A DNA stretch of 64,000 bases from assembly GCA_038831005.1 (NCBI GenBank), contig JAWBKZ010000006.1, positions 1-64,000 on the forward strand. Direction: 5' to 3'. A program made the translations under genes and the position numbers. Each line of letters opens with the position of its first letter. Position 1 is the stretch's first letter. The notes under the pieces are model-generated. The model was not told the DNA's origin. It made no database searches and was given only the letters and a program-made list of their open reading frames with translations. This document shows positions 8,599 to 54,191 of this stretch, piece after piece. This stretch comes from Ignisphaera sp. GTDB taxonomy: Archaea; Thermoproteota; Thermoprotei_A; Sulfolobales; Ignisphaeraceae.

Positions 8599-9675
8599 TT
8601 AATTAGATTTGATCAACTCTTTGTTTTGTCGCCATGTTTTCGGATATATATTTGGATCTATAATCACTCTCTCTATTTTCACAACTATACCTTTTTCTAT
8701 TGATAGAATTTCTTTGCTGTTCATCAATGCTCTACCTATAGCTACGAGCTCACCCTTTAGAGTCATTACAGCAACACGATCCCCTTTACCTATTTTATTA
8801 GAAAGTATGGCTACGCCAGGAGCAGCAAGTTGTGCCCCATGTGCTATAGCATCTACAGCACTATCTTTAATTAATATCTTTGGTAGAAATGCTACTATAT
8901 GTTCCATAGGCAATAGATATTTTCTAATTAGAGTCTCATCTTTATAGTTGTTCCATAAGTAAAGTGCTTCAGAAAGTTCATGCAGTGTCACAAGATCTCT
9001 ATCCTCAGTAAGATGTGCTACAGCAGTTCTTCTTAACTCTCTCATATGTGCTTCAACACCCAGGACTAAACCTATATCATGACATAGCTTCCTAACATAT
9101 GTACCAGATTCACATTTAACTCTAAACAATACATGCCTATTCTCTATTTCAATTACATCTATACTGTAAATTTCCTTCATCCTCAATGATCTCTTGACGG
9201 AGGACCGTAATGGTGGTCTTTGATATATTTTGCCTATGAACATATTTATCACAGATAGTATTTTCTCTTTCTCGACATAATCGTGAAGCTCCATAAGTGC
9301 TACATACTCTTTATATGAGTGCATGAGCACTCCTATGATCTTAGTAGCCTTCTCTAAAGATATTGGTAGTACTCCTGTTACCTTTGGATTTCCCCGCTCA
9401 GCCCAACATCATGGGCTGAGCTCTAGGGTTCCCCCATGACCAGCTTTTTCAAGATTAAACATCTTCTTAATCCATGCCACAACCTCATGACTTGTTGGTC
9501 CAGGAGGTTTATCTAAAACTATTAAGCTACTATGTATGTGATCCTGTATTGATCTTGCGTATGGTAGAGAGCCGTGTTTTTCATCAGTATCTTCATCATA
9601 TTTGACTACATACTCGTGGTCAATATTTGCGGCTCTGTCTAATAATTTAATAAATTCTATTCCTTTTTCCCTCAT
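8599..9675 (-). CDS. cbf5: tRNA/rRNA pseudouridine synthase Cbf5 (two exons)
   Basis: Cbf5 is the catalytic subunit of H/ACA ribonucleoproteins and also makes Psi55 in tRNA. Exon 1 (9675-9423) holds SLIVLDKPPGPTSHEVVAW and KAGHGGTL; exon 2 (9389-8599) resumes with the catalytic Asp codon completed across the junction to give GTL-D-PKVTGVLP, then KEYVALMELH, YQRPPLRSSVKR, CESGTYVRKLCHDIG and a C-terminal PUA domain ending VKIERVIIDP. Removing the 33-nt intron gives 347 residues, the normal family length. The ATG at 9675 has GGTGA five bases upstream; a GTG at 9684 belongs to that Shine-Dalgarno. Without splicing, the protein would stop just before the active site. Confidence 0.96.
9390..9422 (-). 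other. Archaeal bulge-helix-bulge intron in cbf5 mRNA, 33 nt
   Basis: The insert interrupts the codon of the catalytic Asp. Its RNA folds into a perfect 10-bp stem, GCUCAGCCCA/UGGGCUGAGC, closed by UGAUGU. At the base is a canonical bulge-helix-bulge: exon CCCU pairs with intron GGGG, a three-base bulge AGA lies on the 5' side and a three-base bulge AAA on the 3' side, so cutting after the second base of each bulge (AG|A and AA|A) joins CUAG to AUCC and restores Leu-Asp-Pro. The tRNA splicing endonuclease is the expected enzyme. Introns at cbf5 are known in several crenarchaea. Confidence 0.93.
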
Positions 9676-18977: not shown

Positions 18978-20189
18978 TCAAGTTTTACAACACATTATTA
19001 TGTCTGCTATAGGAGCATTAGTCACTACACCATCTGGATATATATAGCTTTTTACAGCTCTATAACCCAATCTCTCTATACATTCTATGACTCTATTTCT
19101 TGAGGATACATTAGTGCGTAAGTATCTAGCTATCTGTGGCAATCGCACAGTTATAGCGTCTATGGTTGCATGACTATGAAGTTCTTGTAATAGTTTTCTC
19201 GATGATTTCTGTATCCATACAACTTCATTGAGATCTCTCAAGACATCATCAATAATATTTTTATCTATGGTGCTACACATCCATATAGGATTCCACATAA
19301 CTAGAGGAGTTCCGCATAATGGGCATTTAACATTAATCATGTGAATGTTGCTACCAGGTTCATCTACTTGGCTATATCCACAATAGGCACATATCCTTAA
19401 ACTCTTTAGACACTCTTTAAGCTGATGATCTGCTTTTGAAGCGCCATTATATACTGCAATATACGTCCTTATATAGTGTTTATATGTATAGGAAAGAATG
19501 GGTTTGACATATCTATCGAGAGAATACGATATTCTAGCAATATATGATAGAAGTGCTCTAATGGCTATATCTCTAGAAATCGGTACTAATGCACCTGTAA
19601 CTCCATATCTTCTATATAACTTGTTGGTATATTTGCCTGTTAGAACAGCTAAATCTGTTGCTGTAATTGCTACGATACCTCCATTACTTGCAGTCGATAT
19701 AGATGAAAATAAAAATGGTATAGGGCTACCGAATGGATCTATATCAATATAATCCATCTTTGTTTTAGTTCTTTGTAGTTTGTATAGATATTCATTTGCA
19801 TCAACTCTTTCTATATTAATGCATTCTTCAACACGATTGAGCCTCACATTAATTTTCATTATGTTAACAGCATATTCAGATATGTCTCCCATAAATACCT
19901 TTAGACTATTTACTTTATTAGTCTCGAGACAAAACCTTATACCTCTCACACCTGTAGCTGCTAATGGATCTACAATTACTACCTCTCTTCCTACTCCTAG
20001 TCTTCTAGTGACGTATCTCACAACACCTATAGCTATATCTCTATTCTCAACCATCTGAGGATTGTAGAATACAGGTGCCCAAGAAGGTTCGTATACATTA
20101 TCATTTCTCATGTATAGTTCTAGCTTTGGTACACAAATACGTGTTAATCCCTCAAATAATAGGTCAAAACCCTCTGGACAAGGATTCAT
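18978..20189 (-). CDS. trm1: tRNA (guanine26-N2)-dimethyltransferase Trm1
   Basis: The 403-residue protein starts FEGLTRICVPKLELY...EPSWAPVFYNPQMVENRDIAI, the Trm1 N terminus, and contains SAM motif I VVIVDPLAATGVRGIRF, MGDISEYAV and the catalytic DIDPFGSP. A zinc ribbon (CAYCGY...CPLCG) precedes the C-terminal domain, which begins at PIWMCSTIDK and contains a winged-helix-like end. It methylates G26 in tRNA. Length and domains are standard for archaea. Confidence 0.96.
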   Translation of the reverse strand: MNPCPEGFDLLFEGLTRICVPKLELYMRNDNVYEPSWAPVFYNPQMVENRDIAIGVVRYVTRRLGVGREVVIVDPLAATGVRGIRFCLETNKVNSLKVFMGDISEYAVNIMKINVRLNRVEECINIERVDANEYLYKLQRTKTKMDYIDIDPFGSPIPFLFSSISTASNGGIVAITATDLAVLTGKYTNKLYRRYGVTGALVPISRDIAIRALLSYIARISYSLDRYVKPILSYTYKHYIRTYIAVYNGASKADHQLKECLKSLRICAYCGYSQVDEPGSNIHMINVKCPLCGTPLVMWNPIWMCSTIDKNIIDDVLRDLNEVVWIQKSSRKLLQELHSHATIDAITVRLPQIARYLRTNVSSRNRVIECIERLGYRAVKSYIYPDGVVTNAPIADIIMCCKT

Positions 20190-20221: not shown

Positions 20222-20773
20222 TTATGTTAACAGTTTCTGTGTTAATTCCATATGTATCTTATTTCTGTTGTCTTCTGTTACCACATAGGTCTTTGGATTC
20301 TTTTTATTAAGAACCTCAGCTATATCTCTATCATTTAGATTTCTATGTACGACAAGTAGAGCTTTTTCAGCCAATGATAGTGACTTGATTATTTCTGTCC
20401 TTAATTTGTCTACTGCTAGTTCCATTGGACCTATCTCATCTATACCTAGAATTGATTTATTGTTAGAGCTATAGAATCTCCTTAGAGCATTAACACCAAT
20501 GCGTATTACATCATCCTCTAGAACAACATATCTCCCTATCCTTTTACTTAACAAGCTGTAGCCTAGTGCTACAGATTTCTCTATAGATAGAGCTAACCAT
20601 CCAGATTCTCCCGTATGTATGTCTATAATTCGGAATCCTATTCTTGCACCTTTTTCACGAACCTCTGGACAATAGAAACCATAGATACTATATCCATGTT
20701 CCTTCAAACTTTTAATAATAGAGTTAAATACCGTGCTCTTACCTACTCCAGGTCTTCCAGTTATGACGATTAT
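20222..20773 (-). CDS. THEP1-type nucleoside-triphosphatase with apparent AUA start
   Basis: The frame IIVITGRPGVGKST (P-loop at residues 6-13) ...ESGWLALS...VLEDDVIRIGVNALRR...ILGIDEIGPMEL (Walker B)...LLVVHRN is the THEP1/NTPase_1 family. The first ATG (20707) would remove the P-loop, and an in-frame TGA lies at 20785-20783, so the start must be between them. No ATG, GTG or TTG exists there. ATA at 20773 lies 8 bases after a perfect GGTGAG and overlaps the TAA of the upstream gene (ATAA); GTT at 20776 is the next candidate. With ATA the N terminus matches the usual length. The family hydrolyses NTPs in vitro; its physiological role is unclear. Confidence 0.85.
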   Translation of the reverse strand: MIVITGRPGVGKSTVFNSIIKSLKEHGYSIYGFYCPEVREKGARIGFRIIDIHTGESGWLALSIEKSVALGYSLLSKRIGRYVVLEDDVIRIGVNALRRFYSSNNKSILGIDEIGPMELAVDKLRTEIIKSLSLAEKALLVVHRNLNDRDIAEVLNKKNPKTYVVTEDNRNKIHMELTQKLLT

Positions 20774-21765
20774 AACGTTTTCTCACCTTCTATCTCTTTT
20801 TTGAAAGTCTTTATATTGTTTATAATATCGTTATACTTATAGACAATACCACAACTCTCTACTCCTCTAATAATACTTCCTGGTACATCATCTTTAACAA
20901 TGTTTACAGCTATACCATTTAAGACTTGGGATACATGTTTATTCTCATACGACTTAGATAGAGCTGTTGTGTTATCCATATCTCTATCTATTATCGAGAT
21001 AAATACCTTTTTCTTATCGATACTCAATATTATGTCTGAAGGAATGTAATCAAAAAATTCTGCTTCAACGCCTTGTTTAACAAGTTTATCGACTAAAATA
21101 ATCTTCTCTTGATTACCACGAAAATCATTCACAATTTCACGTCTTTTATCTATGTTCTCCACAATTCTATCCCTAAATATATCAACTTCTTTTATAACCT
21201 GTTCAAATTCATTATTGAATATCTCGATGAATCTATATGCCTTCTCAACACTCATATCGATCGCTTCATCCTCATATTTCTGAAGAGCTTTAACAGATAT
21301 ACCTACAGCATTGGCTAGTTCATGTAGTCCATAACCTTTCTTTATCCTTAACTCTCTAAGCTTCTTTCCATCTATCTTGACATAGTACATACCTTTGAAC
21401 TCATAGATGTATACTTTATCACCTTTAACAAAGTCCTTAACAGTTTTAGGCTGAACAATACCTATTCTATCCCTTATATGTAATACACCTTCTTCAACTT
21501 CACGATCATTAATTCTATCTGCTATTAATACGGCATTGATCTTCAAGAATTCTGTTAATTTCTTAAGTTCTTTAAAAACAAAATGCTTTGTATAAGTTCT
21601 CTTTGATACTTTCATGAATACTATCTCATTGTCTTTCTTAATAATGCAATCTAGCGTTCTTTTCTCTGATAAGGGAAAGCCTAATTTATGAACTATTTGA
21701 GCATTAAACAACTGTAAGGATTTCTCGATATTCTCTACCGTAGTACGGCTTTCCTCCGGCATCAT
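20770..21765 (-). CDS. Archaeal HTH-type regulator with N-terminal nuclease-like domain
   Basis: The 331-residue protein has an N-terminal alpha/beta domain (about 1-125; TLDCIIKKDNEIVFMKVSKRTYTKHFVFKELKKLTEFL resembles a restriction-endonuclease-like fold), then a Cro/C1-type helix-turn-helix at about 135-185 (LRELRIKKGYGLHELANAVGISVKALQKYED), then a C-terminal domain. This layout matches the widespread archaeal family of putative HTH-type transcriptional regulators. Target genes are unknown. Its stop codon overlaps the start region of the THEP1-type NTPase, so the two are coupled. Confidence 0.85.
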   Translation of the reverse strand: MMPEESRTTVENIEKSLQLFNAQIVHKLGFPLSEKRTLDCIIKKDNEIVFMKVSKRTYTKHFVFKELKKLTEFLKINAVLIADRINDREVEEGVLHIRDRIGIVQPKTVKDFVKGDKVYIYEFKGMYYVKIDGKKLRELRIKKGYGLHELANAVGISVKALQKYEDEAIDMSVEKAYRFIEIFNNEFEQVIKEVDIFRDRIVENIDKRREIVNDFRGNQEKIILVDKLVKQGVEAEFFDYIPSDIILSIDKKKVFISIIDRDMDNTTALSKSYENKHVSQVLNGIAVNIVKDDVPGSIIRGVESCGIVYKYNDIINNIKTFKKEIEGEKTL

Positions 21766-53196: not shown

Positions 53197-53820
53197 TTAC
53201 CTTATTCCTATAACTTTATGAAGCTGGGGTAACACTCTATATGGAAGACCATGTTTAAGTACATAGTCGACAAGCTCTGTATAGCTTATTGTGTAACTAT
53301 TTGGTTGTACAGATAATCTATCTAATGGAACGTATCTTGGTACATATTTTATCAATTCATGAAAATCTCTCTCAGGATCTGTGATCACGAATTTAATCCA
53401 TAGTCTATCTACAGATATTTTCTTCAACTTCATACCTGGATAGTCTGGATTAAACGATGGTAGTTTTGGTGATGCTATAACCAGGTCAACTATTTCCCTA
53501 ATAACATTGGAGAGCTCTATAGAGGCGTTGGTCTCTATCGCCACTCTAAATCCAAGGCTCTTTAGTTCAATTACTAACTTATCGAGTTCCGATAATTGTA
53601 GTAGAGGCTCTCCACCAGTTATTGTAACCCATCTAGCTTCAGATTCTATAGCTTCTTTCACGATACTATCGATACTTATCTCTTCTCCCTCATTCCATGC
53701 ATACTTGGTATCGCAATACCTGCAACGTAAATTACAGCCAGAAAGCCTTATAAAAAAGCATGGAACACCTATCAGCATACCCTCGCCTTGGATAGACTTA
53801 AACATCTCAGCTATCCTTAT
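53197..53820 (-). CDS. queE: 7-carboxy-7-deazaguanine synthase QueE, apparent AUA start
   Basis: QueE is a radical-SAM enzyme that contracts the ring of carboxytetrahydropterin. Motifs are EMFKSIQGEG, FIRLSGCNLRCRYCDTKYAW (the CxxxCxxC cluster site) and TITGGEPLLQ. The first ATG (53805) falls inside the first beta strand; QueE proteins have five to eight residues before EMF. Upstream in frame, ATA at 53820 gives (M)RIAEMFKSIQGEG. This ATA overlaps the queD stop (ATAA) and stands 8 bases after GAGGTG. I take it as the likely start, with ATG 53805 as the alternative. Confidence 0.93.
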   Translation of the reverse strand: MRIAEMFKSIQGEGMLIGVPCFFIRLSGCNLRCRYCDTKYAWNEGEEISIDSIVKEAIESEARWVTITGGEPLLQLSELDKLVIELKSLGFRVAIETNASIELSNVIREIVDLVIASPKLPSFNPDYPGMKLKKISVDRLWIKFVITDPERDFHELIKYVPRYVPLDRLSVQPNSYTISYTELVDYVLKHGLPYRVLPQLHKVIGIR

Positions 53821-54191
53821 GGATACTCCACCTCAACCCAGCTAGTTGGAGTCTCATAAATTCTAACCTTTATACCTAGGAACTTGATCCCAAGAGCTTT
53901 TAATGATGTACAGATATGTTCAAGTATATATACAGCTATAAGCTCAGAGGTCACATTCTTATCTTTAAATACCTCATTGAGATAGGTGTGATCTAGTACT
54001 TCAATTACATCTCTAACAATTTTTCTAAGCACAATAATGTCTACAACCATATTCATTTCATTCAATGAATTCGATTCAACTTCAACATCAACTATGTAGG
54101 TATGTCCATGCAGATTCCTACAAGGTCCCTGATGATCCTCTATTCTATGAGCAGCTGATAAATACTCTCTAATACCAACTCTATATCTCAT
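53817..54191 (-). CDS. queD: 6-carboxytetrahydropterin synthase QueD (PTPS family)
   Basis: The 124-residue protein has zinc ligands His15, His28 and His30 and the catalytic Cys24 in AAHRIEDHQGPCRNLHGHTY, then LDHTYLNE and RIYETPTSWVEVEYP. It converts dihydroneopterin triphosphate to carboxytetrahydropterin, the QueE substrate. It is the first gene of queD-queE-queC, which together yield preQ0 for archaeosine. Confidence 0.95.
   Translation of the reverse strand: MRYRVGIREYLSAAHRIEDHQGPCRNLHGHTYIVDVEVESNSLNEMNMVVDIIVLRKIVRDVIEVLDHTYLNEVFKDKNVTSELIAVYILEHICTSLKALGIKFLGIKVRIYETPTSWVEVEYP

Follow-up and report, generated by a model that had tools for sequence, protein, structure and literature searches.

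Near-cognate start codons are known from bacteria, where AUA, AUU and CUG serve as rare and usually regulatory starts. Escherichia coli infC and pcnB, for example, begin with AUU. In Staphylococcus aureus, ribosome profiling and reporters proved AUA starts for infC, ccpN and citZ; they are directed by extended Shine-Dalgarno sequences (SDs), operate on the bacterial 30S subunit under IF3 control and yield about 10-30% of AUG expression (PMC13009471). A different route to initiation is described for gene pairs of Haloferax volcanii and of bacteria that share a 4-nt start/stop overlap in the -4 register, where ribosomes terminate and reinitiate at canonical start codons (PMC10666635). For Crenarchaeota, aIF1 has been reported to select against start codons other than the canonical ones (PMC8211752, PMC6237735). 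We did not find an archaeal AUA start in the literature searched.

We analyzed a window of 64,000 nucleotides, the whole stretch of Ignisphaera sp. (Thermoproteota) DNA under study, in which an NTPase gene of the THEP1 type appears to lack a usual start codon. The features around this gene are as follows.

18978-20189, minus strand: gene downstream of THEP1, with an ordinary ATG start.
20222-20782, minus strand: THEP1-type NTPase open frame (NTPase_1, PF03266), identified by its Pfam match, orthologues and motifs; the coding part is 20222-20776 with a GTT start or 20222-20773 with an ATA start.
20770-21765, minus strand: HTH transcriptional regulator upstream of THEP1; its TAA (20772-20770) overlaps the ATA.
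20771-20773, minus strand: ATA, candidate start of the earlier note, at GGTG+10 (10 nt from GGTG to the codon), overlapping the upstream TAA.
20774-20776, minus strand: GTT at GGTG+7, which is the best SD distance; at the aligned position I. aggregans has a TTG start and G001, the nearest relative, a CTG.
20782-20788, minus strand: SD AGGTGAG, of which AGGTGA forms 6 contiguous pairs with the anti-SD ATCACCTCCT.
20783-20785, minus strand: in-frame TGA that closes the THEP1 frame on its upstream side and belongs to the SD GGTGA as well.
20760-20800: region containing the start sequence as assembled, GTTATAATC.

The frame matches NTPase_1 (PF03266) with E=1.5e-45 and 155.5 bits against a cut-off of 23.9, covering profile positions 2-166 of 168. 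The NCBIfam equivalog NF010248 matches over its full length with 154.2 bits (cut-off 156). Orthologues were found in 58 of 60 relatives, and the regulator adjoins THEP1 in every Ignisphaera genome examined. All 186 codons are open, with Walker A (GRPGVGKST) and DEIGPMEL intact. Judged by these matches, the frame is a genuine, conserved THEP1-type NTPase gene with predicted NTP hydrolysis. As a protein it is an ordinary member of the THEP1/PRK13695/NTPase_1 NTPases, sharing their motifs and full-length homology, and the start codon is its sole unusual feature. The downstream gene is, from reading its sequence, presumably a Trm1-like tRNA methyltransferase.

The gene could nevertheless be decaying, its start lost by mutation, which would leave a recent pseudogene or trickle expression; losing a start takes a simple one-base mutation and most relatives keep a canonical one. 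The intact frame with all its family motifs, the intact SD, the conserved operon position and the likewise dubious start of G001, described below, speak against decay, which we regard as unlikely.

After the TGA at 20785-20783 on the minus strand, the THEP1 frame reads GAA AAC GTT ATA ATC GTC ATA ACT GGA AGA. The first ATG, GTG or TTG is a TTG at 20707, already past the P-loop GRPGVGKST, which bears out the earlier note's claim that no standard start precedes Walker A. That note had also described ATA 20773-20771 as overlapping the regulator's TAA 20772-20770 to form ATAA, and GGTGAG (20787-20782) as followed by exactly 8 bases and then ATA 20773; both are there in the sequence. Its description of GGTGAG as a perfect SD is slightly generous. 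The 16S rRNA ends in ...GGATCACCTCCT, so the ideal SD is AGGAGGTGAT, and it is AGGTGA that makes the six contiguous pairs.

A single wrong base in the consensus could hide a normal start. With ATG for ATA the overlap would be ATGA and with GTG for GTT it would be GTGA, either of which restores a usual start together with a stop overlap, and no other genome of the species turned up among the contigs scanned. Taken by itself, THEP1 could carry an error of this kind. However, several unrelated genes of this genome share the defect, as do genes of the finished I. aggregans genome (1,875,953 bp, error below 1 in 100,000; PMC3035270), with near-cognate codons at the SD-optimal place. Random errors would not choose such codons at such places, so the recurrence counts against error. 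We therefore consider a hidden normal start at THEP1 improbable; nor is the gene an isolated oddity.

Which codon would start THEP1 can be approached through SD spacing. In 140 genes of this genome with unambiguous starts, GGTG occurs 54 times; the start follows at 7-8 nt in 30 of these cases, the peak of the distribution, and at 10 nt in only 3. Likewise, 17 of 23 canonical 4-nt overlaps in this genome have a distance of 7-8 nt, while a distance of 10 nt occurs in 0/23 here and 2/26 in I. aggregans. Since starts cluster at GGTG+7-8 and ATA lies at +10, the SD points to the GTT codon. Comparison with the same position in related genomes, proposed in the earlier note as a check, turned out against ATA: orthologues start one to two codons before the ATA column and none of their starts aligns with it. 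Where a relative's start can be placed, it lies 4-5 codons ahead of the P-loop I/LTG, which is the GTT column or one codon earlier. I. aggregans has TTG exactly at this column, and G001 has CTG there, at the right distance behind a GGGTGG SD; the sole canonical codon nearby in G001 is a GTG buried inside that SD.

Codon chemistry points the other way. AUA differs from AUG in the third base alone and GTT in two bases, and we know of no precedent for GUU as an efficient start codon. GTT 20776 is thus favoured by its SD distance and by where relatives start, whereas ATA 20773 is chemically likelier. With spacing and relatives' starts on one side and the near-cognate status and precedent of AUA on the other, we make no firm choice of codon. 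Given a non-canonical start, we put AUA 20773 at slightly better than even odds and GUU 20776 at slightly short of even. The two products differ by one residue.

The earlier note further proposed that initiation at AUA is coupled to termination of the regulator. Ribosomes ending at UAA would restart on the overlapping AUA, and SD spacing would not be needed. This termination-reinitiation is a sub-case of non-canonical initiation, and its probability overlaps with that of the main reading given below. The ATAA of THEP1 has the same 4-nt geometry as 50 canonical 4-nt overlaps in our sample, and a second gene of the window, QueE, carries the same ATAA. Overlaps of 4 nt support reinitiation in archaea (PMC10666635); the pairs described there share the -4 register with THEP1, but their starts are canonical, whereas the overlap codon of THEP1 is ATA and coupling is hypothetical. 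Among pairs in the -4 register whose overlap codon is non-canonical, that codon is ATA in 19/44 in this genome and 32/57 in I. aggregans, and in both genomes most genes with ATA there have an ordinary start nearby. ATAA is thus expected about half the time in this register and by itself gives no hint of coupling. THEP1 has a good SD in any case, and most other ATA, CTG and ATT cases are SD-led and have no stop overlap. We found nothing that specifically supports the proposed coupling and consider reinitiation at THEP1 doubtful.

Similar starts were sought by comparing stop-to-stop ORFs from 864 kb of this genome with those from 1.2 Mb of I. aggregans, which gave 438 reciprocal best pairs. An ORF was flagged when homology to its partner's N-terminus extended upstream of any ATG, GTG or TTG. 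With G041 as the one control genome, the survey took in two thirds of I. aggregans and about half of the present genome. In this genome 11 of 380 pairs were flagged as having no canonical start, several of them with other causes, compared with 0/93 in the control; to lack such a codon ahead of a homologous N-terminus is thus uncommon and goes beyond chance. The second case in the window is the following.

53197-53832, minus strand: QueE-like radical SAM gene, with GAGGTG at 53834-53829.

Its ATA (53820-53818) lies at GGTG+8 and overlaps the upstream TAA as ATAA, the next ATG being 5 codons on. This ATA aligns with an ATG in I. aggregans (IRIAEMFKSIQGEG / MRVSEIFYSIQGEG). By its sequence, QueE is a cleaner candidate for an AUA start than THEP1. 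The cases beyond these two genes are listed below.

This genome, isopentenyl-phosphate-kinase-like gene (IPK): CTG at GGTG+7, next canonical codon 26 later.
This genome, C1:83826, TrkH-like transporter: CTG at GGTG+7, aligned with ATG.
This genome, C3:6406, B12-binding protein: ATA at GGTG+7.
This genome, uracil-DNA glycosylase (UDG): ACG at GGTG+7.
This genome, HflX: ATA at GGTG+6, aligned with the ATG of G001.
I. aggregans, C1:1196892, YGR210-type GTPase: ATA at GGTG+7.
I. aggregans, frame at C1:222592, PurQ: CTG at GGTG+7.
I. aggregans, molybdopterin oxidoreductase: ATA at GGTG+7.
I. aggregans, 1362335, Mrr-domain gene: ATA at GGTG+7, aligned with ATG.
I. aggregans, C1:1040238-1041053, minus strand, RIO kinase: CTG at GGTG+8.
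I. aggregans, C1:168953, DUF2118 gene: ATT at GGTG+7, with the same ATT in G000, G001, G007, G008 and G009.

The recurrence of the DUF2118 ATT in five species is partly explained by its overlap with the C-terminus of the upstream gene, and in four species a +1 shift at AAAA is possible. The candidates at C1:2035, C1:15509, C1:77843 and C6:13724 were rejected as non-canonical starts, being fragments or having a plausible later start.

Directly upstream of the RIO kinase with CTG, I. aggregans (G009) encodes aIF1A (C1:1041054-1041386, minus strand; L268:1054-1386), where the codon at GGTG+7 is ATA and no ATG occurs until 13 codons further on; this is possibly an initiation factor that itself starts at AUA. 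At the 5' end of HflX, the TTG of G004-G006 is replaced by GTT in G003 (L227) and by ATT in G010 (L229), and an out-of-frame ATG lies nearby. The gene may have a further non-canonical start here; alternatively, a frameshift or the out-of-frame ATG may be involved. In G000, GGTGA is immediately followed by a flavodoxin-like ORF (C1:299866-300318) whose codon at +7 is ATA and which runs for 134 codons before any canonical start. Another ORF of G000 (C4:2053-2376) resembles the C-terminal part of a putative biotin-protein ligase and has no start for 88 codons; it is perhaps a frameshifted gene.

Enrichment was scored on ORFs that directly follow GGTGA and whose first six codons include no canonical one, taking the codon at GGTG+7 and deriving expected counts from codon usage. 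ATA, CTG or ATT occupied this position in 9/11 ORFs of I. aggregans against 1.37 expected (P=3e-7) and in 4/9 of this genome against 1.0 expected (P=0.012), P values to be read with the caveat that the codon group was fixed after part of the data had been seen. The control, a single genome (G041) of much higher G+C, gave 1/6 against 0.40 expected. In two species, then, ATA, CTG and ATT recur at SD-optimal positions of genes without a canonical start, and the conserved THEP1 gene likewise has an SD and no canonical start. The recurrence in both species and the enrichment at the codon to which the SD points make non-canonical initiation in Ignisphaera well supported by these comparisons, while AUA specifically is not settled. 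The earlier note's reading of AUA initiation thus holds for a non-canonical start and, through other genes, for AUA in the genus; for THEP1 itself, spacing and relatives' starts argue against ATA.

We therefore read THEP1 as a probably functional NTPase translated from a non-canonical start chosen by its good SD, one of a set in Ignisphaera, with a probability of about 0.72. The 30S subunit would bind AGGTGA of the THEP1 mRNA and accept Met-tRNAi on a codon other than AUG, GUG or UUG in the P site. At AUA 20773 the mismatch would be in the third base, as in known AUA starts, possibly aided by ribosomes terminating on the overlapping UAA; GUU 20776 would offer the optimal SD distance and the homologous position. 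The N-terminus would read Met-(Ile)-Ile-Val-Ile-Thr-Gly-Arg-Pro-Gly-Val-Gly-Lys. For THEP1 itself we infer translation, the first residue Met, the codon used and a yield below that of AUG.

The proposed starts resemble the S. aureus cases in being SD-directed AUA codons, and those of E. coli infC and pcnB in being near-cognate third-base mismatches in cellular genes. However, the E. coli AUU starts are isolated regulatory cases of a bacterium. The S. aureus starts, too, are bacterial and experimentally proven, whereas those of Ignisphaera belong to an archaeon, are known from sequence alone and are spread over enzymes, GTPases and transporters instead of a few regulated genes. We consider it fairly probable that relaxed start-codon selection is a trait of the Ignisphaera lineage, in which a few percent of the genes, conserved housekeeping genes among them, would routinely start at an SD-positioned AUA, CUG or AUU (perhaps also ACG or GUU). 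Recurrent near-cognate starts across unrelated conserved genes of an archaeal genus would, if real, be a new form of a phenomenon already known.

The reported discrimination by aIF1, together with the presence of aIF1 in the genus, counts against non-canonical initiation. Loss of aIF1 was rejected as the cause of any relaxed selection, since each of the 11 Ignisphaera genomes carries SUI1. A changed initiator tRNA was also rejected as a cause, as the initiator-like CAT tRNA of I. aggregans looks ordinary by eye.

If relaxed selection is a lineage trait, standard gene calling would truncate or discard the genes concerned, and annotations of such genomes would misplace starts or label real genes as pseudogenes. 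In the published I. aggregans genome, 79 genes are listed as pseudogenes (PMC3035270), and some of these may be such cases. The conserved genes concerned would include PurQ, the isopentenyl-phosphate-kinase-like enzyme, RIO kinase and GTPases, and Ignisphaera would offer a natural setting in which to study the tolerance of archaeal initiation for near-cognate codons. The claim for the genus is directly testable, as I. aggregans is in culture.

Ribosomes might instead reach the THEP1 frame by frameshifting, coming either from the regulator or from the GTG that lies out of frame within GGTGAG, and the genus has at least one further gene without a start, that of the release factor aRF1, which looks as if expressed by a +1 frameshift. 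At THEP1, however, there is no slippery site. Entry from the regulator would be a -1 shift at GAG AAA ACG TTA TAA, where the slipped tRNAs would mispair, and entry from GTG would be a +1 shift with neither a stop codon nor a conserved heptamer. Relatives, moreover, start THEP1 separately after the regulator's stop. We regard frameshifting into THEP1 as very unlikely.

In these archaea aRF1 mostly has no start in its own frame. It is preceded by a mini-ORF such as ATG TCT ATT TAG, in Ignisphaera usually at GGTG+7/8, and continues in the +1 frame. The loci are the following.

L120:1994-3109 (G000 C4:161994-163109), L322-L332, L334-L344, L348, L349, L351 and L352: aRF1.

The motif (A/G)TT followed by a stop is found in 26/26 motif-bearing loci from four GTDB families (TAG in 23, TAA in 2, TGA in 1) and is absent from four further loci, all of family f7. 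The overlapping residue of the main frame changes from Ser to Asn or Asp and the stop from TAG to TAA or TGA, but the stop is never lost. The stop thus persists through changes (S/N/D) in the main-frame residue, and it is apparently the stop that is under selection. This pattern resembles bacterial prfB, which is autoregulated by a +1 frameshift at CUU-stop (PMC10274946), and aRF1 appears to be expressed by a conserved frameshift of the same type. Autoregulation by the level of aRF1 would be the obvious hypothesis. We found no report of a prfB-like aRF1 frameshift in archaea, nor is one mentioned in the passages of recoding reviews that were searched. This putative frameshift is possibly more important than the start of THEP1.

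Finally, one more ORF of the window has no start codon.

8599-9408 and just upstream, minus strand: cbf5 (tRNA/rRNA pseudouridine synthase), a split gene.

It was rejected as a non-canonical start, because the ORF is the second exon of an intron-containing gene. A short intron-like insert, which has complementary arms (GCTCAGCCC...GGGCTGAGC) and carries a stop, interrupts the gene between GHGGTL and PKVTG; we take it to be like the known crenarchaeal cbf5 introns.
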